Assembly: GCA_031286615.1 (NCBI GenBank)
Contig: JAITUA010000016.1
Location: 1 to 64,000 of the forward strand
Origin: Chryseobacterium sp.
GTDB lineage: Bacteria; Bacteroidota; Bacteroidia; Flavobacteriales; Weeksellaceae
Direction of reading: 5' to 3'
DNA length: 64,000 nucleotides
Both the position numbers and the translations under genes were made by a program. Positions within the stretch are counted from its first letter, which is position 1. Every line of letters begins with the position of its first letter. This document shows, one piece after another, positions 1 to 10,915 of this stretch. The notes under the pieces were generated by a model. That model had not been told where the DNA came from and made no database searches. It saw nothing but the letters and a program-made list of their open reading frames with translations.

Positions 1-34
1 GTCCACAGATAGAACAAAATAAATGCGCTAGCAG
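1..34 (+). repeat. 60-bp palindromic element, copy 1 (partial)
   Basis: These bases equal positions 3225-3258 exactly, including the terminal CTAGCAG. The 5' part of the element lies outside the window. Confidence 0.8.
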
Positions 35-39
35 CGGTT

Positions 40-1161
40 TTGCTTTATTTTATAAACAGTTATATTTATCAGTACAAAGATCATTTAGGAAATGTGAGAA
101 TAGCTTTTGCAAAGGATAATGCCGGTGTAGTTCAGTCAATGGATACCAATAACTATTATCCGTTTGGGTTAAACCATATTGGAGGATCTTCTTACTCAAA
201 CTTTGGAAGTTATTACAACTATAAGTTTGGAGGAAAGGAATTGCAGGAAACTGGATGGAATGATTTTGGAGCAAGGATGTATATGAGTGACCTTGGTAGA
301 TGGGGTGTGATAGATCCGCTCGCGGAGAAAACAAGGAGATTTAATCCTTATAATTATGCCTTAGATAATCCTATTCGTTTTATTGACCCAGATGGTAGGT
401 CAGAATCTGATTGGTTTAAAAATTCTATAGGCCAAATGGAGTTTAGAGATGATATAAAAAGCCAGCAGGATTTAACAGATGCAGGAATAACAGGAAAATA
501 TGTAGGAGAAACAGCAAAAGAAGGGGATTTGAGCTATGATGCAGATGGATGGATTTATGACGATTCTGCAGCTGGTAAAGGTAAAGAAGTTGCTAATGGT
601 AGAGTTACTGATGTTGGAGAGGTTAAAATTACAAAAACCAACTGGTGGCATAGCCCCTGGGCAAGATTTCTGGTTCCTGATCGATTTGGTGTTACCACTA
701 GTACATCTGCAGGAGGTGGTTTAGAAGTTGGGGCTAGCACGGGACTTGAGGTAATTACAAGAGGAAAAGATGCTGGAATTTATTTTGATCCAGGGAATAC
801 GTTTAGTACAGGAGTTTTGGTTGGAGCTAGTGGAGAAGTAGATTATAATTTCTTTACTAGTCAATTCTCTGGGAAAGTTTCTGATATGGATTTAAACTCT
901 GTAGTTGGGACTGAAGCATATGTTAAGGCTTCCGTATTAGAAGGTATTGGTATTAACGGGGGTGTTGCTGTCAGTTTTGATCCTAAAGCTCCATTGAGTG
1001 GAAATAGATGGATTACTACCTTTGGAGGAGTTTCTGTAGGAGGAAGTGCTACAGTAATTTCTGGTGGTGCTGGTGTCACTGTATCAAATACAAGAATTGG
1101 AATTGGTTTTGATGGTAAATCCCGTGTTGCAGATTATTCAGGAGCAATGAGAGTAAAATAA
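40..1161 (+). CDS. 5'-truncated RHS core with toxin-like C-terminal tip
   Basis: RHS/YD-repeat polymorphic toxins are large surface or secreted proteins whose conserved core ends in a DPxG boundary followed by a variable effector tip. Residues 8-120 show the core: YQYKDHLGNVR near 11-20, NYYPFGL at 38-44, GARMYMSDLGRWGVIDPLAE at 77-96, and FIDPDGR ending at 120. Residues 121-373 form a Gly/Ser-rich tip with no toxin motif that I recognise. The frame opens after a TAG at 10-12 and the only candidate start is a TTG at 40, so this is the 3' part of a gene cut at the 60-bp palindromic repeat, not a complete RHS gene. It could be expressed only as a fragment, or serve as a tip donor. The first 135 bases recur at 3225-3359. 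A membrane protein gene follows after 10 nt and may encode immunity. Confidence 0.8.
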   Translation: MLYFINSYIYQYKDHLGNVRIAFAKDNAGVVQSMDTNNYYPFGLNHIGGSSYSNFGSYYNYKFGGKELQETGWNDFGARMYMSDLGRWGVIDPLAEKTRRFNPYNYALDNPIRFIDPDGRSESDWFKNSIGQMEFRDDIKSQQDLTDAGITGKYVGETAKEGDLSYDADGWIYDDSAAGKGKEVANGRVTDVGEVKITKTNWWHSPWARFLVPDRFGVTTSTSAGGGLEVGASTGLEVITRGKDAGIYFDPGNTFSTGVLVGASGEVDYNFFTSQFSGKVSDMDLNSVVGTEAYVKASVLEGIGINGGVAVSFDPKAPLSGNRWITTFGGVSVGGSATVISGGAGVTVSNTRIGIGFDGKSRVADYSGAMRVK

Positions 1162-1171
1162 ATTAATAAAT

Positions 1172-1525
1172 ATGGAATTATCTAAGCGCAATATTTTGCT
1201 TTTTTTTACACTATTATTAGTTATCATTATAGTTTTTTTTGTTAGTAAATATAATCAAACAAACAAAGCATATTCTAGTAAACTAAACGGGAAAGTTGAA
1301 TCTTTGAGGCATGTGGGACGAGGTGAAGCTTATCTACAAGTGAAATTTGAAGGAGAAAGAGAATTTAATTCATTATGTATTGTATATGTAGGTAATGAAA
1401 ATCAGGATGATCTAAAAATAAATGATTCAATTTATAAGGCGAAAAACTCTTTGAATTATCAGGTTTATCGACAAGATAGCTCTGGAAATTATATTTTTTA
1501 TAAAACATTAAAAAATGAACCATAA
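1172..1525 (+). CDS. small single-pass membrane protein, putative RHS immunity
   Basis: 117 residues: one hydrophobic segment at about 8-25, then a soluble, probably periplasmic domain. No catalytic motif is visible. It starts 10 nt after the stop of the RHS tip gene, the usual place for an immunity gene in polymorphic toxin loci. Its C-terminal pattern (INDSIYK...Y.VYRQDS, about residues 82-103) resembles VGDTIVK...F.IHKKDS in the lipoprotein at 2257-2586. The two therefore look like diverged members of one family, each placed behind an RHS tip. The immunity role is inferred from position only. A hairpin follows the stop. Confidence 0.6.
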   Translation: MELSKRNILLFFTLLLVIIIVFFVSKYNQTNKAYSSKLNGKVESLRHVGRGEAYLQVKFEGEREFNSLCIVYVGNENQDDLKINDSIYKAKNSLNYQVYRQDSSGNYIFYKTLKNEP

Positions 1526-1531
1526 CAAAAA

Positions 1532-1555
1532 ACTGCCACTCATTTGAGAGGCAGT
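1532..1555. terminator. hairpin between convergent genes
   Basis: ACTGCC and GGCAGT flank an inner CTC/GAG stem. The hairpin lies between the convergent stop codons at 1525 and 1563 and fits a shared terminator. Confidence 0.55.
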
Positions 1556-1562
1556 ATTGTAA

Positions 1563-1967
1563 CTAATTAGGACTTACATAATATCCTACTATTTTAATAG
1601 AATTGTTTTCTTTATGTAGTGTGAATTTTTCTTGGGTATTCTTGATGTCTCGGTTTACATTGTAAATTAATATATATTCATTTCTGGAATGAGTTCCTTT
1701 TATGATACTTGCCTGCTCATATATTAAAGAATCATTTTTAATATTTCCAAATTGCGAAAAAGAAGTATCAAACATTTCATTTACTTGTTCTTGTGTAGCA
1801 ATTTTGAAAAGCTCATTACCGCACAAATTAAAAATTTTTTCTCTATCATTTTCTTTTAAAAGAGAATAAAATTGTTGTGTTGTTTTTTCAGCTTCTTTTA
1901 AAGAAGATTCTTTAAAACTACAATTTATTAAAAGTAAGCTTAATAGTAATACAATATATTTTTTCAT
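1563..1967 (-). CDS. small lipoprotein, unknown function
   Basis: 134 residues with a lipoprotein signal peptide (lipobox LLINC, Cys16). After it comes a helix-rich segment (EAEKTTQQFYSLLKENDREK) and then strands, an arrangement like small SnoaL/DUF4878-type lipoproteins, though I cannot assign a family. It is convergent with the putative immunity gene upstream. A 5'-truncated paralogue lies at 2612-2869; the two share the pattern IKNDSL...KGT.S...L.Y.V.RD...TQE.F...KEN..IKI. The repeated presence of this reverse-strand gene next to RHS tips suggests that it belongs to the cassette. Its role is unknown. Confidence 0.65.
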   Translation of the reverse strand: MKKYIVLLLSLLLINCSFKESSLKEAEKTTQQFYSLLKENDREKIFNLCGNELFKIATQEQVNEMFDTSFSQFGNIKNDSLIYEQASIIKGTHSRNEYILIYNVNRDIKNTQEKFTLHKENNSIKIVGYYVSPN

Positions 1968-1968
1968 A

Positions 1969-2001
1969 GATATATTTAGGATATATTTAGGATATATTTA
2001 A
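1969..2001. repeat. 11-bp tandem repeat, three copies
   Basis: GATATATTTAG is repeated twice exactly and a third time with a final A, just upstream of the lipoprotein start at 1967 on the minus strand. Confidence 0.8.
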
Positions 2002-2033
2002 TTATTAAATTTATAACAAATTTAATAATTAAA
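1997..2033. other. perfect 16-bp AT-only hairpin
   Basis: TTTAATTATTAAATTT (1997-2012) is followed by a 5-nt loop and its exact complement (2018-2033). It sits between the minus-strand lipoprotein and the next tip remnant and marks a cassette junction. It has no GC, so a terminator role is uncertain. Confidence 0.6.
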
Positions 2034-2055
2034 AAGTATCAGATAAGTCTGGTTC

Positions 2056-2247
2056 TTGGCAGTGGTTGGTGGTGAATATAGCAAAAGTTCTTCAGATGGG
2101 AAAGAGTCTCCTTATGGGACAAAGACCAGAAGCGTCAATTTAGAATTAGGATACGGTGTAGGAAGATCTAGAACGCAGACTATAAGTATAAGTAACTGGA
2201 TAAAGGCTCATCCTCAGTATTTTAAAATTGGACATTCAAGTAATTAA
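2056..2247 (+). pseudogene. orphan C-terminal end of a secreted or RHS tip
   Basis: A 63-residue reading frame with only a TTG start (stop codon at 2044-2046), rich in Gly/Ser and ending SISNWIKAHPQYFKIGHSSN. It has no signal peptide and no core, so it is most likely the 3' remnant of a longer gene. A lipoprotein gene follows after 9 nt, repeating the tip-immunity spacing seen at 1161/1172. I infer an orphan RHS tip; the sequence itself has no diagnostic motif. Confidence 0.45.
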
Positions 2248-2256
2248 TAAATAGTT

Positions 2257-2586
2257 ATGAAATCTTTAATACTTCTCAGCTTATTTCTTTTTATACTTTC
2301 TTGTGGAAAAGTTAATTGTGTTGAATATACCAAAATGCTCTCCAAAGAAGAATGTATAATAGCGGTTGAAACTCCTCCTACATCTTCAGTTTGGTTCGAG
2401 GTGAAAGGTTATGATCCTGTTACTCAAAAATCTAAAATATGTAAAACCAATAACAGGTGGTGGAATTTATATTGGAATGAAATAGAAGTTGGAGATACAA
2501 TAGTAAAAAAGAAAGGGAAATTAACCTTTAATATTCATAAAAAAGATAGTATTATTACTCACTTTTGGAAATGTTATGAAGAATAA
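2257..2586 (+). CDS. small lipoprotein, putative immunity to orphan tip
   Basis: 109 residues: signal peptide with lipobox FILSC (Cys16), then a mature domain with several Cys and Trp residues. The C-terminal pattern VGDTIVK...HKKDS is similar to that of the membrane protein at 1172-1525. It lies 9 nt behind a tip remnant. By position it would be an immunity lipoprotein in the periplasm; there is no direct evidence. The stop codon lies inside a perfect 18-bp hairpin shared with the convergent gene. Confidence 0.6.
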   Translation: MKSLILLSLFLFILSCGKVNCVEYTKMLSKEECIIAVETPPTSSVWFEVKGYDPVTQKSKICKTNNRWWNLYWNEIEVGDTIVKKKGKLTFNIHKKDSIITHFWKCYEE

Positions 2587-2621
2587 ATAAAAGCGGAAGT
2601 ATTTTCCGCTTTTATTTATTC
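2581..2621. terminator. bidirectional terminator overlapping both stops
   Basis: A perfect 18-bp stem (2581-2598 with 2604-2621) around a 5-nt loop, with GCGGAA/TTCCGC at its centre and A/T runs on both outer sides. It contains the stop codons of both convergent genes. Confidence 0.85.
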
Positions 2622-2869
2622 TGTAAAATATCAAAATTTATCTTATATTTTTCTATCTTGATAGTATCATTTTCTTTTTGCATAATAAATGTTTCTTGAG
2701 TATGAGAGAAATCTCTATCTACTTCATAGGTTAGTAAATAATTAGATTTTGAATTTGTTCCTTTAACTACAAGTGTCTGCCATGTAGAGAGACTATCATT
2801 TTTTATTTTTCCGTTTTCATTTTCTATTTTATCAAGTACCAAATTAAACTTTTCTTTACTTGTTGTTTT
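2612..2869 (-). pseudogene. 5'-truncated paralogue of the 1563-1967 lipoprotein
   Basis: The reading frame is open from a stop at 2870-2872 and has only a TTG start. It matches the second half of the lipoprotein at 1563-1967 (GKIKNDSL...VVKGTNSKSNYLLTYEVDRD compared with GNIKNDSL...IIKGTHSRNEYILIYNVNRD). Signal peptide and lipobox are missing. The alignment can be followed back to TSKEKFN, beyond the TTG, which shows that this is a cut gene and not a short native one. The break point is at about 2870. Confidence 0.75.
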
Positions 2870-2873
2870 TTAA

Positions 2874-3167
2874 CAATCTCCTGTTAAGGCTGGTAATTAC
2901 ACAATTGGCTATGCTACAAAAATGTATTGGCCAATAATATCCTATAAACGAATTAGATTTAATTACACTGTAAATGGAAAAAAATATGAAACTACAAACA
3001 TTTATGCCAAAGATCCTGAAGTAAAAATACCTGCAAGGTATTTGGTGCAATTTTCTTTAGAAGATAATTCATTTTCTAACATTTATCCAAATATTCCTAT
3101 TCCTGATAGTATTCAAAAATCTCCTTCAGGTGGTTGGAAAACATTTCCTGAATGGGCAAAAAAATAA
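2874..3167 (+). pseudogene. 3' fragment of a small secreted-type protein gene
   Basis: An open frame right after the break at 2870 (stop at 2871-2873). The first ATG is at 2922, but the coding pattern reads through from 2874 (SPVKAGNYTIGYATK). The C-terminal part (IPARYLVQFSLEDNS...PIPDSIQKSP..GW) resembles a common family of short Bacteroidota hypothetical proteins that start with a membrane segment, which is absent here. It is therefore probably a 5'-deleted gene joined to the truncated paralogue on the other strand. Function unknown. Confidence 0.5.
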
Positions 3168-3198
3168 TTAGTAATAAGATGGAAATTATAAATTTCCC

Positions 3199-3258
3199 CT
3201 GCTGGCGCGAGCGTCTTCGCTCGTGTCCACAGATAGAACAAAATAAATGCGCTAGCAG
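3199..3258 (+). repeat. 60-bp palindromic element, copy 2
   Basis: Ends are CTGCTGG and CTAGCAG (inverted, 6 of 7). Inside is a hairpin CGAGCG-TCTT-CGCTCG. It lies directly before the second RHS core fragment. The part from 3225 onward is identical to the first bases of this window, so copy 1 is cut by the window start. Copy 3 is at 4009-4068 in the same orientation with the same length. It is REP/MITE-like in form. Confidence 0.85.
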
Positions 3259-3359
3259 CGGTTTTGCTTTATTTTATAAACAGTTATATTTATCAGTACA
3301 AAGATCATTTAGGAAATGTGAGAATAGCTTTTGCGAAGGATAATGCCGGTGTAGTCCAG
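3225..3359 (+). repeat. 135-bp direct repeat of 1-135
   Basis: Same sequence as 1-135 with two differences (111/3335 and 132/3356). It covers the end of the palindromic element, a 26-nt spacer and the RHS core up to the codons for NAGVVQ. After this the two copies diverge completely, which marks the cassette boundary. Confidence 0.9.
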
Positions 3360-3559
3360 CCCAATGCAAATGAAGGTCAATCTCATGGAGCAAAAATGAA
3401 AAAGGGAGAAGGAGTTGGCAGGATGATTAATTTTAATGCAGAAGGCTCGAAAAAAGGTGAAAAAACAGAACATAGTAATATATAAATCACCAACAACAAC
3501 TTATTTTAGATATTTTTAATAAACAGATAGGAGCAACTGCTACTGAGAAAAAAAAGTAA
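3264..3559 (+). pseudogene. RHS core stub with frameshifted orphan tip
   Basis: The frame starts at a TTG like copy 1, encodes YIYQYKDHLGNVRIAF, and then a new tip (NANEGQSHGAKMKKGEG...) that stops at 3485. A second frame, beginning exactly at the break, continues as NHQQQLILDIFNKQ and ends with a TAA at 3557-3559, only 4 nt before the next gene. The junction contains AATATATAA; loss of one TA would join the two frames. So this is probably a tip inactivated by TA slippage. The tip is not recognised. The rest of the RHS core (the DPxG part) is missing here. Confidence 0.6.
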
Positions 3560-3563
3560 ACTA

Positions 3564-3992
3564 ATGAAAAAAAAAGTATTTAGAATATCGGGAATTGTTT
3601 TACTTATTGTATTTGTTTTATTTGCTTATAAGGCAATAAGTATTTTGGTATGGGCTCATAATGCCAATAAAAATTTTTATAATCTTACTTTAAAAGCTCA
3701 ATTAGTAGATGAAAATGGTAAAGAAATAAAAACGCAAGGGAATGTGTTTCTTACTAAGTATGTCTGTTCTGATGATTATGATTTAGATCCAATAGCTGAC
3801 CAACAGATAGATATCATTACAATCAATAGAGAAGGTAAGGTAAATGATACTTTTTTACCATTGCAAGGTATAGTTGTAGATAGTATAAATGTATCCGGTT
3901 ACAAGTTGATAGATGTAAAAAAAGAAAGAGATTATTACGCAACCAAAGATTATGATACTGTCCAAATGAAATTTGTTTTAACAAAACAATAA
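3564..3992 (+). CDS. membrane-anchored small protein, putative immunity
   Basis: 142 residues: an N-terminal transmembrane anchor (about 7-27), then an extracytoplasmic domain of about 110 residues (KAQLVDENGKEI...DTVQMKFVLT) that looks like a beta-sandwich or carboxypeptidase-regulatory-like fold. No known motif. It follows the repaired end of the preceding tip by 4 nt and lies between repeat copies 2 and 3, which bracket an 810-bp unit. The immunity role is inferred from context. Confidence 0.6.
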   Translation: MKKKVFRISGIVLLIVFVLFAYKAISILVWAHNANKNFYNLTLKAQLVDENGKEIKTQGNVFLTKYVCSDDYDLDPIADQQIDIITINREGKVNDTFLPLQGIVVDSINVSGYKLIDVKKERDYYATKDYDTVQMKFVLTKQ

Positions 3993-4008
3993 AACTATTT
4001 GTATCCCC

Positions 4009-4068
4009 CTGCTGGTGCGAGCGTCCTCGCTCGTATCCACAGGTATAATAAAATCAATGTACTAGCAG
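4009..4068 (+). repeat. 60-bp palindromic element, copy 3
   Basis: Same ends (CTGCTGG/CTAGCAG), same length and same inner stem CGAGCG-TCCT-CGCTCG as copy 2. One outer pair changes from C-G to T-A on both sides, which is compensatory. The sequence after CTAGCAG is unrelated to the other copies. Confidence 0.85.
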
Positions 4069-4228
4069 ATTATAGAGCGTTTACGCAATTTATGACGAAT
4101 TTTTGCAAGGTATTATTACTAACTTTAGTGAAATAAAAGTAATTTGCTTGAAAATATAGAGTTTGTTGACAAACAATAGATTATTGAACGAATGGAGTCT
4201 GAAATAAAAAAATAATCGCGTTAAAATA
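4069..4228. other. non-coding end of the RHS island
   Basis: AT-rich, with no open frame that resembles a gene. It contains a TTGACA-like string, but no convincing promoter pair. I see nothing further in it. Confidence 0.4.
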
Positions 4229-4278: not shown

Positions 4279-5448
4279 TTATCTTTCAATCATGATATTC
4301 TTCACAAGAGTTTCTTCACCTATTTTCAAAACTCCGACATACACTCCGTTTTGAAGGCTGGAAACATTAATCTTATTTTCATTATTTACTTTTAGCATTG
4401 ATCTTCCCATAGCATTACTGAGTTCAAAACTGAAGTTTGTTTCTTTGGAATCCGGGATTTCAATGTTGAGAACATTGCTGGCAGGATTAGGGTAGATTTT
4501 TGCTGTTTCTAAAGCGTTTTTAGAAGCAGGTTTGCTTAAGGTAGTGGAAGCTGTTGCAAAATGCTGTAAAGCTCCCACAGTAGCTTTTCCAATATTATAA
4601 ACATAGGCAGGGTCCATATTGGTGAAAGTATCCTTGGAGCTGTGAGGATAACTGCTTCTGATTCTTTCAAAAAAGCCTGTAATCACTTCGCCTTTCTGTT
4701 CAAAAGGAATATAATCTGTGTCTTCAGCCGGATCTACAGCGGTTTGAAGAGGAGAGTAGAGTGCTGTACAGTTTCTAAGCTGCTGAGTTACTGCTGCAGA
4801 AGCTGCATTATTGTTGGAAAGGCCTCCCTGATCTTCATCACAGTATACCGTATTATTGTTGTTTCCTTTTACTCCGCCTACCTGATCAAGATTAAAGACC
4901 AGCTTTATATCTAATTTTCGTACACCTCCCTGATATACAACATTATTTACATAGTGGCTGCTTCCCTTTAATCCCTGTTCTTCACCGGAAAAATGGATAA
5001 ATTTGATGGAATAGTCAGTCGGTACATTTCTCAGAATCCTTGCCGCTTCAAGAATAATAGAAGTTCCGCTTCCATTATCATTCACTCCAGGGCCATAAAT
5101 GGTGTCGAAATGCCCGCAGATAATAACATATTTGTTGGGATAAAGTGTTCCTGTTTTCGTTATGATTAGGTTTTTAGAACTGGTACTTCCAAAAGTAAAC
5201 GGACTTTCTACAATCTGGCTGGACGTATAACCATAAGAAAGATACTTGTTTTTGATCCAGTTCAATGTATTGGTGTTAGCCACCGAACCCGTAGTTTTTA
5301 CTCCTAAATTACTGAATTCCTGAAGATTTGTGGTAATGTTGGCCTGGGTAACCATATCCGCTCTGTCTTTATAAGCCTGGATAAAACTTTGAGCCCCGAT
5401 ACTCTGCATAATAAATGCTGAGCACAAAAGTGTTGTGATTTTTTTCAT
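4279..5448 (-). CDS. secreted M28 zinc aminopeptidase, T9SS sorted (copy 1)
   Basis: 389 residues: signal peptide (1-19, ending GAQ), M28 catalytic domain (about 30-300) and a C-terminal T9SS type A sorting domain starting near KIYPNPASN (317). The expected zinc ligands and catalytic residues are visible: His113 (CGHFD), Asp124 (GVNDNGSG), Glu156/Glu157 (SGEEQG), Asp188 (NLDQVGG) and His269 (YPHSSKD). M28 enzymes release N-terminal amino acids from peptides using two zinc ions. Here it would act outside the cell or on its surface after T9SS export. It is the first of three tandem paralogues on this strand, with high similarity throughout, so a nutritional protease array is likely. Confidence 0.92.
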   Translation of the reverse strand: MKKITTLLCSAFIMQSIGAQSFIQAYKDRADMVTQANITTNLQEFSNLGVKTTGSVANTNTLNWIKNKYLSYGYTSSQIVESPFTFGSTSSKNLIITKTGTLYPNKYVIICGHFDTIYGPGVNDNGSGTSIILEAARILRNVPTDYSIKFIHFSGEEQGLKGSSHYVNNVVYQGGVRKLDIKLVFNLDQVGGVKGNNNNTVYCDEDQGGLSNNNAASAAVTQQLRNCTALYSPLQTAVDPAEDTDYIPFEQKGEVITGFFERIRSSYPHSSKDTFTNMDPAYVYNIGKATVGALQHFATASTTLSKPASKNALETAKIYPNPASNVLNIEIPDSKETNFSFELSNAMGRSMLKVNNENKINVSSLQNGVYVGVLKIGEETLVKNIMIER

Positions 5449-5611
5449 ATAAATAATATTATTTTGGTAATACTAATGTAGTGAATAAATCACAATGAAG
5501 TGTTTAATGTTTTAAAATAAAATGAAATTTTTATTATGTTATCAATAGATTTCGCATTGAAAAGTATGAGTGTGTTGCAAATGCTTTAATCTGTGTGATT
5601 TCTGAAAAGTA

Positions 5612-5639
5612 AAAACCTTTAAATAGCTTCAAAGGTTTT
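5612..5639 (-). terminator. terminator of the second M28 peptidase gene
   Basis: AAAACCTTT and AAAGGTTTT form a 9-bp stem just downstream of the stop at 5665 on the minus strand. Confidence 0.6.
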
Positions 5640-5664
5640 ATAATTTAATGATATGTAATGTGAA

Positions 5665-6840
5665 TTATCTTTCAATCATCACTTTTCTTACTACAGTCTG
5701 ATCTCCGGCTTTTAATATTCCAAGATAAGCGCCATTTTCCAATCCCGAAGCATTGATTTTTGTTTCATTGGTTCTCTTGAAAATAGATCTTCCCTGGAAA
5801 TCGGTCACTTCAAAAGTGAAATTCTTAATTCCGGAATCAGGAAGTTCAATATTAATGATATCCTTTACCGGATTTGGATAAATTTTTACAGTTTCCAATG
5901 TATTTTTTACCACAGCTTCATGCGTTCCCAATGTACCTGTAGCAACAGCAAAATGCTGAAGTGCCCCCACAGATGCTTTTCCTATATTGTAAATGTACAC
6001 TGGATCCGTATTGGCAAAAGTATCATTAACCGTATGTGGGTATGTACTTCTGATTCTTTCAAAAAATCCTGTAATCACTTCACCTTTTTCCTCAAAAGGC
6101 ATATAATCTGTATCTTCAGCCGGATCTACAGCAGTCAGAAGAGGAGAATAAAGCGCTGTGCAGTTTCTTAATTCCTGAGTCACAACAGCAGAAGCGGCAT
6201 TATTGGAGGTAAGCCCTCCGAGATCCTGATCACAATAAACTGTATTGTTGTTATTTCCCATCACACCGCCCACCTGATCCAGGTTAAAGACGAGTTTGAT
6301 ATCCAAAACACGGTTACTCCCCTGATATGCTATCGTATTGGCATAATGAGTGCTTCCCAGAAGTCCTTGCTCTTCTCCGGAAAAATGTATGAATTTTATA
6401 GAATATTCCGTTGGTACATCTTTCAGGATTCTGGCTGCTTCAAGAATAATAGAAGTTCCGCTTCCGTTATCATTGACTCCCGAGCCGGTAATACTGTCGA
6501 AATGCCCGCAGATAATAACAAATTTATTAGGATACACAGTTCCTGTTTTCGTAATCACCAGGTTTTTAGAATTATAACTTCCTGCGGTAAAAGGATCTTC
6601 TGCCATCTGGCTGGCAGTATACCCATAGGAAATATATTTGGTTTTAAGCCATTCAAGAGCGTTATTGTTTGCTGCTGTGCCCGTTTTTTTTACTCCTAAA
6701 TTGGCAAACTCCTGAAGGTAAGTGGTAATATTAGTCTGGGTTACCATATTCGCCCTGTCCTGATAAGCCTGAATGAAATTTTGAGCTCCAAGACTTTGCA
6801 TGGCGATGGAAGCCAGTAAAAAAGTAGCGATTTTCTTCAT
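5665..6840 (-). CDS. secreted M28 zinc aminopeptidase, T9SS sorted (copy 2)
   Basis: 391 residues when started at the ATG ending at 6840, which gives a clean signal peptide (MKKIATFLLASIAMQSLGAQ); a longer frame with 13 more residues would spoil it. The domain order is as in copy 1: M28 domain with CGHFD, GVNDNGSG, SGEEQG, NLDQVGG and YPHTVND, then a T9SS tail (KIYPNPVKD...VMIER). Copy 2 is closer to copy 1 than copy 3 is, for example in the shared AVDPAEDTDY substrate-side loop. This suggests that copies 1 and 2 are the most recent duplication. It has its own terminator and probably its own promoter. Confidence 0.92.
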   Translation of the reverse strand: MKKIATFLLASIAMQSLGAQNFIQAYQDRANMVTQTNITTYLQEFANLGVKKTGTAANNNALEWLKTKYISYGYTASQMAEDPFTAGSYNSKNLVITKTGTVYPNKFVIICGHFDSITGSGVNDNGSGTSIILEAARILKDVPTEYSIKFIHFSGEEQGLLGSTHYANTIAYQGSNRVLDIKLVFNLDQVGGVMGNNNNTVYCDQDLGGLTSNNAASAVVTQELRNCTALYSPLLTAVDPAEDTDYMPFEEKGEVITGFFERIRSTYPHTVNDTFANTDPVYIYNIGKASVGALQHFAVATGTLGTHEAVVKNTLETVKIYPNPVKDIINIELPDSGIKNFTFEVTDFQGRSIFKRTNETKINASGLENGAYLGILKAGDQTVVRKVMIER

Positions 6841-6902
6841 TTTATGATTGTAATAATGAAGTACAGATAAATCTAACATTCATCTGTATCTTAAGTCTGA
6901 CA

Positions 6903-8084
6903 TTATTTATTAATGATTATTTTCTTTGTTGTATTTCCTTTATCGGTTTTGATAGTAACCATATAAACTCCGTTTGTAAGACCGGATGTGTTTATTTTTT
7001 TCTCGTTTTCAGCATTTAAGACCCTATTTCCTGCCATGTCATTAATCTCAACTTTGAATTGTGTGACTTCTTGCTGAAATTCCACTGTTATAAGATCTTT
7101 TGCAGGATTGGGATAAATTCTGATTTCTTCTGCTGGCTTCTGTGCTGTGGTCTCATGAGTGCTTAAAAGATTACTTGATGTTGTGGCAACGGCAAAATGC
7201 TGTAATGCTCCCACAGCTGCTTTTCCTACATTGAAAACATATACAGGATCAATATTAGCATAGGTGTCACTTACAGTGTGCTCATTATTACTTTTGATAT
7301 ACTCATAAAACCCTGTAATCGTATATCCTTTAGCTTCAAAAGGCATATAATCTGAGCTGTAAGCATAAGAAAGATTCGTTTGCAGAGGAGAGTAGAAGGT
7401 TGTACATGTCATCAGCTCCTGAGTCATAGTATTAGATGCTGTGTTATTGGATGACATTCCTCCTGTATCTCTTTCACAAGTGATGGTATTGTTATTATTT
7501 CCTATAAGACCCCCAACCTGGTCGATATTTAGAACCAGTTTTATATCCAGAACTTTTGTGCTTCCCTGGTATGCTACATTGTTTACATAATGATCACTTC
7601 CCACCAGACCTTGTTCTTCTCCGGAAAAATGAATAAACTTGATAGAATACTCCGTTGGAATATCTTTCAGAATTCTTGCCGCCTCAAGGATAATAGAAGT
7701 TCCACTGCCATTGTCACTTACTCCAGGTCCTACGATCGTGTCGTAATGCCCGCAGATAATAACATATTTGTTAGGATATAAAGTTCCGGTTTTGGTAATG
7801 ATCAGATTTTTTGATGTATTGCCCCCATAGGTGAAAGCATCTTCAGAGAAATCATTGGCTGTATATCCATAAGACAGGTATTTGTTTTTAAGCCATTCCA
7901 GCGTATTATTATTAGCTGTTGTCCCTGTTTTTTTTATTCCAAAGCCTGCAAATTCCTGAAGGTTTGTATTGATATTGGCTTGCGTGACCATATCAGCCCG
8001 GTTTTTATAAGCCTGAATAAAACTCTGTGCACCAATATTTTGCAGTGCAATGGAAGTCAGCAAAAAAACTGCAGCTTTTTTCAT
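6903..8084 (-). CDS. secreted M28 zinc aminopeptidase, T9SS sorted (copy 3)
   Basis: 393 residues: signal peptide, M28 domain with all metal ligands (CGHYD, GVSDNGSG, SGEEQG, NIDQVGG, NEHTVSD), and a T9SS tail (RIYPNPAKDL...KIIINK). The loop that reads AVDPAEDTDY in copies 1 and 2 is replaced by NLSYAYSSDY, so substrate choice may differ. Only 62 nt separate its stop from the start of copy 2, so it may be co-transcribed with it. Confidence 0.92.
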   Translation of the reverse strand: MKKAAVFLLTSIALQNIGAQSFIQAYKNRADMVTQANINTNLQEFAGFGIKKTGTTANNNTLEWLKNKYLSYGYTANDFSEDAFTYGGNTSKNLIITKTGTLYPNKYVIICGHYDTIVGPGVSDNGSGTSIILEAARILKDIPTEYSIKFIHFSGEEQGLVGSDHYVNNVAYQGSTKVLDIKLVLNIDQVGGLIGNNNNTITCERDTGGMSSNNTASNTMTQELMTCTTFYSPLQTNLSYAYSSDYMPFEAKGYTITGFYEYIKSNNEHTVSDTYANIDPVYVFNVGKAAVGALQHFAVATTSSNLLSTHETTAQKPAEEIRIYPNPAKDLITVEFQQEVTQFKVEINDMAGNRVLNAENEKKINTSGLTNGVYMVTIKTDKGNTTKKIIINK

Positions 8085-8410
8085 TTTGATATTTTATTTA
8101 GAGATTGTAAATGTAGCAATAAATCATTATTTATTGTCAATTATTCAATCTATTTTGATGTAATTGTTTGTTTTTTTAATAATAATATGACTTTTTATAT
8201 AATTTGTTGTTATGGTAGGTTGTTGTCCATTCAATAAGTTGGTTTTTATGTATATTTTTCTATTATTTTTAATTTTTTATGTTGAAAATTAAGTATTATG
8301 CTTTGTGGTTTGATAAATCGTATTAATGATATATCAAATGCCTCTGAAATCTGAAGGAGCTGAAACTGAATTTCAACTTGAAAACACACAAGATTGAAAA
8401 GTACAAAGCA
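8085..8410. other. AT-rich intergenic region
   Basis: Very AT-rich, without a plausible gene. The part next to 8084 should hold the promoter of the third peptidase gene: all three paralogues share a GATTTAT...TAC(A/T)TT-like string upstream of the start. Nothing else was recognised. Confidence 0.4.
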
Positions 8411-9430: not shown

Positions 9431-10915
9431 ATGAAAACAATAGTATGCAGTATCCTTTTTATGCTGACTTCGGTTATGGCATGTACTCAGGAAACAAAAG
9501 ATAATTTCCCGTTGGTTCCATCAAAAACAAAAAGTATCAGTAGCGTTCCGTTTTTAACGAAGCAGAATGACTTTATTTATGTAGATAAGATAAGTTTAAA
9601 ACCTGTCAGCAAACAAAAGTTCAGAAACGCATCCCTATTTACTCCTACAGGTTTTGCGGTCGTTGAAAATGAAAAAAATGAATATGGTGTCATTGATGAA
9701 AGGGGAAAGATCGTTTTAGATTTTTCAGCCAGCGCAATAGGTTTAAATGTTGTCGACGGACTTACATTTTATAAAAAAAATATTGAATACGAAAAGAAAA
9801 TGCCTGTCTGGAAATGGGATTGGAATATCATGGGAAGCGGTATTAAGAAAGAACAGACCTACCATAAAATTGAGATTGGCGTTGTAGAAAGCCAACAAAT
9901 CTTACTCAATGAAGACATTCCTTACCTGGAAGAAAATTATTATCTGAATTTTGTTTCTGTAGATGAAAAACACCTCTTTTGGAATGGAAACATTTACGAA
10001 ATCAAAAAAGGTCATTTAAATAAAATTGAAAATGGAATTACTGAATTACTGGAAAATAAACGTTTTATCAAAGGTTCCAATACGAGTTTTTCAATATATG
10101 GATTGGGGCAAAAAAAGGCACTTCACAAAGAATTAAAAGGTACAGAAACACTTTCCATCCGGTTTGGAAAGGAAACGATAATGCTGAAAGAGGTTAATAA
10201 AGAACGGTATGATCCGGAAGTTCCCAAGCTTTTAGCAGACAGCAAAACCCAGGATATTTATCCTTTTCCACAGTATGAAAAGGTCTTTCCGAAAGAAATT
10301 ACAAAAGCCACCGCCTCGCAGATTGATTTCATAAAGAAAACATCTTTAGTGTATTCTATTACCAATTCGCCTTATTTTCTGCTGGGTGTTTTTAATTATG
10401 ATCATGATATCTGGGCCTACGATTGGCTTTATATTGATACTAAAGGAAACGTCACAGATTCTATTGGTACCTATAATTTTAAAGTGCTGGATCAGGTAGG
10501 AAATGTGGTCTGGCCGGACAGAAAAATGATTTTGCCCAGCCAGTTCGTTGATAAAAACTGGAAATTCGGGAAAATAAATTCTTATCACAGTATGAACGAT
10601 TTATATCTTATTCCCATTGAAGATGAAAAACAGCTGAGAACAAAAGGATTGTGGAACAGGAGCAAAAATATCTGGGAAATCAAGCCTGAATACAATGATA
10701 TTTCTGTTTTGGACACTGATGAACATATCTATGCGCTTCAAAAAGAAAAAGACGGCTTATATATGCTTTATGATAACAAGAATAAAAGGAATATTGGATC
10801 AAAAATGTATAATTCCATTAATTCTGACGGTCTGGTAAGTATTAAACGCAGTTCCGGAGAAAGTACGTATTACTATATTGATATTTACTCCGGGAAAGAA
10901 TACAAAGAACAATAA
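9431..10915 (+). CDS. WG-repeat-like lipoprotein
   Basis: 494 residues with a lipoprotein signal (lipobox SVMAC, Cys18). The mature part has short repeats of the WG type (NEYGVIDERGKIVLDF near 78-93, later KDGLYMLYDNKNKR), which fold as beta-strand units; most repeats are degenerate. No enzymatic motif. It is the first gene of the block inserted between infC and rpmI and is followed by a small membrane protein. Likely anchored to the outer or inner membrane; function unknown. Confidence 0.75.
   Translation: MKTIVCSILFMLTSVMACTQETKDNFPLVPSKTKSISSVPFLTKQNDFIYVDKISLKPVSKQKFRNASLFTPTGFAVVENEKNEYGVIDERGKIVLDFSASAIGLNVVDGLTFYKKNIEYEKKMPVWKWDWNIMGSGIKKEQTYHKIEIGVVESQQILLNEDIPYLEENYYLNFVSVDEKHLFWNGNIYEIKKGHLNKIENGITELLENKRFIKGSNTSFSIYGLGQKKALHKELKGTETLSIRFGKETIMLKEVNKERYDPEVPKLLADSKTQDIYPFPQYEKVFPKEITKATASQIDFIKKTSLVYSITNSPYFLLGVFNYDHDIWAYDWLYIDTKGNVTDSIGTYNFKVLDQVGNVVWPDRKMILPSQFVDKNWKFGKINSYHSMNDLYLIPIEDEKQLRTKGLWNRSKNIWEIKPEYNDISVLDTDEHIYALQKEKDGLYMLYDNKNKRNIGSKMYNSINSDGLVSIKRSSGESTYYYIDIYSGKEYKEQ

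Follow-up and report, generated by a model that had tools for sequence, protein, structure and literature searches.

Rows of spare toxin ends behind a polymorphic-toxin gene are already known. In the orphan CdiA-CT/CdiI and Rhs-CT/RhsI arrays (PMC3150448), as in the locus described here, a main gene is followed by fragments with new tips and immunity genes, and tips of orphans recur elsewhere at the ends of full-length genes; a shared module of the contact-dependent inhibition (CDI) systems starts at one VENN motif and stops exactly at the following one (Poole et al. 2011, PMC3150448). For the Rhs genes of Salmonella LT2, homologous recombination between main gene and orphan has been described over 522 bp at 95% identity, and the fusion that results is able to deploy the tip of the orphan (Koskiniemi et al. 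2014, PMC3967940). The C-terminal cassettes of Neisseria MafB (PMC4287609), some of them without a start codon and potentially silent, likewise lie with immunity genes downstream of a full gene. Here we describe an array of this kind, made of RHS tips, at the start of a 64,000-nt stretch of Chryseobacterium sp. DNA (assembly GCA_031286615.1, contig JAITUA010000016.1; henceforth the window), in which several orphan units end in the same short repeat, a hairpin followed by a terminator-like hairpin. This repeat in turn recalls the repetitive extragenic palindromes (REPs) that accompany REP-associated tyrosine transposases (TnpA-REP or RAYT) of subclass 2.6 in Bacteroidetes (PMC6006769), where secondary structures flank Y1 transposase genes and have copies elsewhere in the genome.

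The likeness has its limits in each case. Unlike the CDI and Rhs arrays, whose report does not contain the string 'palindrom' in its main text (PMC3150448), several units here have a hairpin-terminator in common at their ends, and the block formed where this repeat meets the next core is conserved in 11 genomes. Unlike in Salmonella, where the main text of the report does not contain 'terminator' (PMC3967940), there is an extra shared block on the right-hand side, known from sequence alone. MafB belongs to a different toxin family, and the available text of its report describes no hairpin cap (PMC4287609), whereas the difference from the subclass 2.6 REPs (PMC6006769) is that the clear copies in this genome all lie in RHS loci and that no Y1 gene was found in it. 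A search of titles and opening parts of abstracts in the open-licence literature returned no prior report of a shared hairpin edge.

Shared homology begins at the repeat

We compared 22 joints, i.e. a repeat profile match (E≤0.001) with a core starting at most 70 nt away at profile position ≤12, from 21 fetched stretches of 11 genomes, after dropping identical copies and copies near an edge. Over 100 bp the joints had an identity of 0.77 between genomes (206 pairs) and 0.85 within genomes (25 pairs), while for the 100 bp to their left the values were 0.44 and 0.40. The change is abrupt in the ungapped alignment: the majority base reached a frequency of 0.27–0.59 in the 40 bases left of the repeat and mostly exceeded 0.8 from repeat base 6 to the loop. 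Choosing joints by similarity, as was done here, favours a conserved joint, not a sharp left edge. As the sequence before the repeat is unique to each unit, the repeat marks the left limit of the shared homology.

The same edge was observed within the locus itself, which continues from contig C17, carrying the main RHS gene, into the window at the start of contig C1. Between C17 and C1 the immunity-like genes agree at 211 of 273 bases, the spacers behind them at 11 of 28, and the sequences from the first repeat base on at 129 of 130. A first-pass annotation of the window, made from its letters alone, had noticed that two core fragments follow the same repeat, and indeed positions 1–135 and 3225–3359 align without gaps at 133 of 135 bases (98.5%). 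It had also proposed the repeat as the boundary used for tip exchange, which fits these joints, where homology starts at the repeat, and fails as a general rule (see below).

Joint identity was higher within than between genomes (genome-label shuffles, p=0.0007), an excess that seems to be driven by genome G135 and the C17/C1 pair. The first orphan core of the window is of mixed affinity. It resembles the resident core of the main gene at its start and the core of genome G106 at its end. Compared with the resident core over four stretches it matched at 79/82, 77/85, 68/90 and 57/90 bases, and compared with the core that carries the same tip in genome G106 at 54/82, 54/82, 67/90 and 72/90, the control comparison of resident and G106 cores giving 56/82, 53/82, 70/90 and 56/90. 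The whole tip-1 module (C1 59–1967) is 81–82% similar in G106 and G136, in both of which tip 1 sits on a longer open reading frame (ORF); in G111 tip 1 is on an RHS ORF of 1220 aa, with the small gene directly behind.

The repeat caps units

Described at first as a single 60-bp palindrome, the repeat resolves by folding and alignment of the 22 joints into two hairpins: one of about 27 nt, GCTGGCGCGAGCG..CGCTCGTGTCC, and about 20 nt further on a second, terminator-like one of the type AAACCACTG..CAGTGGTTT. By a strict perfect-stem rule (GC-containing stem plus T-run) the second qualifies as a terminator-like hairpin in 16 of the 22 joints and is degenerate in the window. An additional outer pairing, CTGCTGG/CTAGCAG, is confined to the C17/C1 copies. 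RNAalifold predicted 18 pairs; in four of them (three in the second hairpin) both partner bases are changed in one or more sequences, with a small covariation term of -0.59 out of -16.95 kcal/mol. No known RNA element was matched by Rfam at the gathering threshold in L057, L051, L050 or L187. Canonical REPs carry an end tag, GTAG or CGTC, at one end of the hairpin (PMC3733652). No such match was found here: the consensus foot reads GCTG, and by eye CGTC appears only near the apex. Since the usual tag is missing and the genome (G000) gave no match to Y1_Tnp at E≤0.001, we call the repeat REP-like and not a canonical REP.

A further hairpin, AAAGTCT..ACTTTGAG or a variant of it, was seen in several of the gaps that follow the last ORF, frequently accompanied by a terminator (L051 11240–11370 and 14594–14720; L071, L116, L119, L121, L122 and L185). 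As a marker in this genome (AAAGTCTnnnACTTTGAG) it gave one match and its reversed control gave one too, which makes that search uninformative.

The units had been thought to begin with the repeat; they end with it. In the fetched RHS loci of this genome, read on the RHS strand and counting preceding ORFs of at least 60 aa, all nine profile matches begin 0–91 nt past an ORF stop, and an RHS operon on contig C3, with no orphan core in its fetched stretch, likewise ends with the repeat. Both observations identify the repeat as a cap. If the next core lies at most 70 nt away, its start is 19–63 nt past the profile match (24 joints). G135 has eight successive repeats; behind seven of them stands a core fragment, and behind the final one an ORF that lacks an RHS core. 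Counted from the orphans, a repeat lies at most 300 bp upstream in five of nine in this genome and in 27 of 72 in the stretches selected by joints. Core fragments in relatives also seem to start recurrently near profile positions 1–7 and 50–57, where local profile alignments may begin anyway.

Distribution of the repeat

By rough estimate RHS loci make up 1–2% of this genome, and all four matches of the exact hairpin pattern lie in them. A search with 63 bases returned ten matches, eight of them (E<0.05) in RHS loci and two, of 14 and 17 bases, with E>1; its sensitivity is limited, given that it missed the copies at C1:4006 and C19:8127, which were found locally. Within the window, a 54-base repeat pattern with up to three mismatches matched once, and never in 100 shuffles. 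A randomly spread repeat is rejected for this genome, in which every clear copy found is in an RHS locus; in other genomes some copies of the hairpin lie outside RHS loci.

Sixty genomes of the genus, sampled evenly, contained 14 strict hairpins in eight genomes. All three hairpins of this genome and eight of the 11 others are preceded, within the fetched stretch, by an RHS core of the same strand; two of the remaining three are near contig ends and the third is that of L181 (see below). Together with the search of this genome, as suggested by the first-pass annotation, this bears out a concentration at RHS loci in this genus. In a wider collection of 84,980 species genomes, from which records very close to this genome may be left out, the exact hairpin was present in 34 stretches, all from genera that we take to be Bacteroidota. 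A same-strand RHS core was found in the same tile (≤8 kb) in 13 of the 34, equal to 13 of the 22 from Chryseobacterium; L086, with a weak core match on the opposite strand, was not counted.

Proposed exchange of tip-immunity modules and its alternatives

We consider it probable that the units are exchangeable tip-immunity modules, swapped by homologous recombination with, in arrays that have the cap, the core as constant left arm and the hairpin-terminator as constant right arm. The proposal follows the recombination seen in Salmonella Rhs (PMC3967940) as well as the homology that CDI orphans show from module to module (PMC3150448); its new part is the right arm, which we infer from the shared repeat. 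An orphan unit comprises a core fragment, a tip and one or more putative immunity genes, several units being capped by the REP-like hairpin with its terminator. Where units stand tail to head, the two arms would merge into one repeat-terminator-core block, and recombination between such blocks, presumably of RecA type, would let new and putatively toxic tips enter and orphans be gained or lost. Cutting at the repeat is not needed, as ordinary homologous recombination suffices. The main job of the hairpin-terminator itself would probably be to end transcription behind each unit.

A number of observations weigh against this model. No exchange event was observed, the comparison being one among species representatives. 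The nearest joint belongs to the same genome in 5 of 22 cases (5 of 15 in genomes with at least two joints), so homogenisation is not general, and in view of the control comparison of resident and G106 cores, it is chiefly the last 90 bases that give orphan core 1 its mixed affinity, so that the case for a mosaic is weaker. Both C17/C1 joints have a degenerate terminator (0/2 by the perfect-stem rule). Among 20 stretches of relatives picked for RHS regardless of the repeat, 55 of 56 orphans have no repeat within 300 bp upstream, and neither do four of the nine in this genome. This count leaves out fragments less than 200 bp from a stretch edge or with an upstream open frame of at least 60 codons; one fragment of L125, excluded for its open frame, is preceded at 260 nt by a weak match to the repeat. 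With one repeat among 56 orphans of relatives, orphans evidently form without it, and an obligatory repeat at the start of every orphan is ruled out by this count together with the five of nine. Other arrays carry other hairpins behind their last ORF, and the full RHS genes at C3:535 kb and on C5 are without the repeat in the fetched stretch. Conversely, the hairpin in L181 has a peroxidase gene on one side and a Der-like GTPase gene on the other, outside Chryseobacterium no RHS core was found in the tile in any of the 12 stretches (with a core profile built from this genome, which may miss distant RHS), and six of the 21 hairpin stretches without a core have an ORF with a Y1-type motif 8–554 nt away.

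It is possible, though rather unlikely in our view, that the hairpin-terminator does no more than end transcription or ride along as a hitchhiker at the 3' end of each unit, and that tips swap through core homology alone, with no part played by the repeat. This would fit the abundance of repeat-less orphans, the occurrence of the repeat behind RHS genes with no orphan core in the fetched stretch (L052, L184) and the terminator-like hairpin in most joints. A mere hitchhiker accounts poorly for a left edge of homology that is sharp at the repeat in 22 joints, and for a C17/C1 repeat-core block that is nearly identical between diverged or unrelated flanks.

In another scheme the repeat is the site where a single-strand transposase of Y1 type (RAYT/TnpA-REP-like) would cut out whole toxin-immunity cassettes and insert them, in the manner of the attC sites of integrons. 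The six Y1-motif ORFs near strict hairpins all score above the Pfam cut-off for Y1_Tnp, and Y1_Tnp is present in 153 of 173 genomes of the genus. At least five of the stretches without RHS core show, by eye, an inverted partner of the hairpin, in keeping with its REP-like character. The scheme appears improbable all the same, for this genome has no detectable Y1_Tnp at the threshold given above and most orphans of the RHS-selected relatives are repeat-less.

In L193 (G085, plus strand) immunity-like ORFs are separated by elements of about 210 bp, at about 670–877, 1465–1678 and 2180–2391, with a spacing of 713–801 bp. Each element comprises a REP-like hairpin, a terminator, a conserved spacer of about 110 bp and an inverted REP-like hairpin, and there are no core fragments between the ORFs. 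These units have the look expected of the Y1 scheme. That the REP-like hairpin is a cassette boundary for past or present action of Y1 (RAYT type), with singly mobile units forming a non-integron cassette system of Bacteroidota and the L193 units as its products, nevertheless strikes us as quite improbable.

Lastly, one simple tandem duplication as the source of both fragments in the window, which by the first-pass annotation would have refuted its reading, is highly improbable: the two joints do have related immunity-like genes before them and share the repeat-core block at 129/130, but the tips and the genes that follow them differ, the immunity-like copies agree at only 211/273 and orphan core 1 is of mixed affinity, so that duplication of a whole unit fails to explain the two.

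Anatomy and surroundings of the locus

The array forms the 3' portion of a polymorphic-toxin locus of RHS type, with its main gene on C17 and displaced orphan units behind it. The genome is in 22 contigs and the window is the first 64 kb of C1, so that window base 1 is the contig start and only the last 34 bases of repeat copy 1 fall within it; the other part lies at the end of C17 (165810–165939), where C17 overlaps C1 exactly over 101 bp. On C17 a gene of 570 aa with a type IX sorting tail and then one of 1001 aa precede the 1203-aa RHS gene with DUF6443 and RHS-associated core, behind which come a 136-aa immunity-like gene and the repeat. The full RHS gene expected upstream of the window is thus this one: its core start agrees with orphan 1 at 79 of 82 bases, and adjacency follows from the contig overlap and from synteny. 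A further array, on C19, has a full RHS gene and four orphan units, with profile repeats at 8127, 13062 and 14594. TIGR03696 was detected in the full gene of C17, in window orphan 1 and in the C19 orphan ORFs at 8348 and 11329, and not in the C19 ORFs at 9878 and 13398 or in the short window ORF 3264–3482. The features of the array are listed in Table 1.

Table 1. Features of the RHS array at the start of the window (positions in the window; strand + or -)
Feature	Position	Strand	Remarks
3' part of hairpin repeat copy 1	1..34	+	100% over repeat bases 30-63; contig overlap
Orphan RHS core fragment 1, contains TIGR03696 Rhs_assc_core	54..396	+	
Orphan core and tip ORF 1, 373 aa, TTG start	40..1161	+	tip about 397-1158; homologues in G106, G136, G111
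117-aa protein, hydrophobic N-terminus, putative tip-1 immunity gene	1172..1525	+	kept together with tip 1 in G106, G136, G111
134-aa lipoprotein-like ORF	1563..1967	-	right end of a module of about 1.9 kb common to G106, G136
Possible core-less tip remnant	2056..2247	+	tentative assignment
109-aa lipoprotein-like ORF, putative orphan immunity gene	2257..2586	+	tentative assignment
3' remnant, homologue of the C17 immunity-like gene behind the main RHS gene	2895..3167	+	211/273 bases
Hairpin repeat copy 2	3196..3258	+	REP-like hairpin about 3201-3228 and degenerate terminator
Orphan RHS core fragment 2, truncated	3278..3359	+	
ORF of orphan core 2 and 41-aa tip remnant	3264..3485	+	
142-aa protein, hydrophobic N-terminus, putative immunity gene	3564..3992	+	
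Hairpin repeat copy 3, closes array	4006..4068	+	86%
Right end of RHS island	4069..4221	.	homology to 20 relatives resumes between 4221 and 4280

Repeat copies 2 and 3 are direct copies 86% identical and 810 bp apart, as first noted. The two core fragments do diverge after their shared part, as expected of different tips, the second 'tip' being a remnant of 41 aa. The small genes said to follow within 4–10 nt do so behind the first tip (10 nt, 1161 to 1172) and the tip remnant (9 nt, 2247 to 2257), while the distance behind core fragment 2 is 78 nt (3485 to 3564). TTG is the sole start codon of both window orphan ORFs. ORF 1 had no Pfam match at E≤1, and Pfam searches with the window tips and small genes gave sub-threshold matches or none. 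Antisense to the array, the 134-aa lipoprotein-like ORF is joined by a related partial copy (2612–2842, minus strand).

The flanks show where the island sits. Twenty relatives were picked by similarity of the downstream peptidase-like genes, which in the window (4279–8084, minus strand) are three tandem paralogues of 389–404 aa, presumably peptidases. The outer flank on C17 is the last part of what we take to be a histidine-type operon, and that on C1 is the peptidase side. In all 20 relatives the two flanks are in the same order and at most 5.5 kb apart, which places C17 and C1 together. They abut in two relatives and are separated by 0.3–0.7 kb in ten and by 2.0–5.4 kb in eight, with no RHS core or repeat in the fetched stretches of any of the 20. 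Accordingly, an RHS island of about 13 kb was either acquired by this genome or lost by others, and the site is a variable one. At that site (window 4221, L050 6903), occupied here by the RHS island, G157 has an insert of about 500 bp with an ORF and eight of the 20 relatives have 2–5.4 kb of other DNA.

Contig ends in L051 (1–1053) and L053 (11000–12043) lie in similar copies of the sorting-tail gene that precedes RHS genes, likely the cause of the assembly breaks.

Implications

When a polymorphic toxin swaps its tip and keeps the matching immunity gene, core homology accounts for the left side of the exchange and not for the right. If the model holds, the shared hairpin-terminator behind the immunity gene would be a common right arm, by which a tip could move along with its immunity gene, including where an RHS gene stands alone, and REP-like elements would gain a concrete role in toxin evolution.

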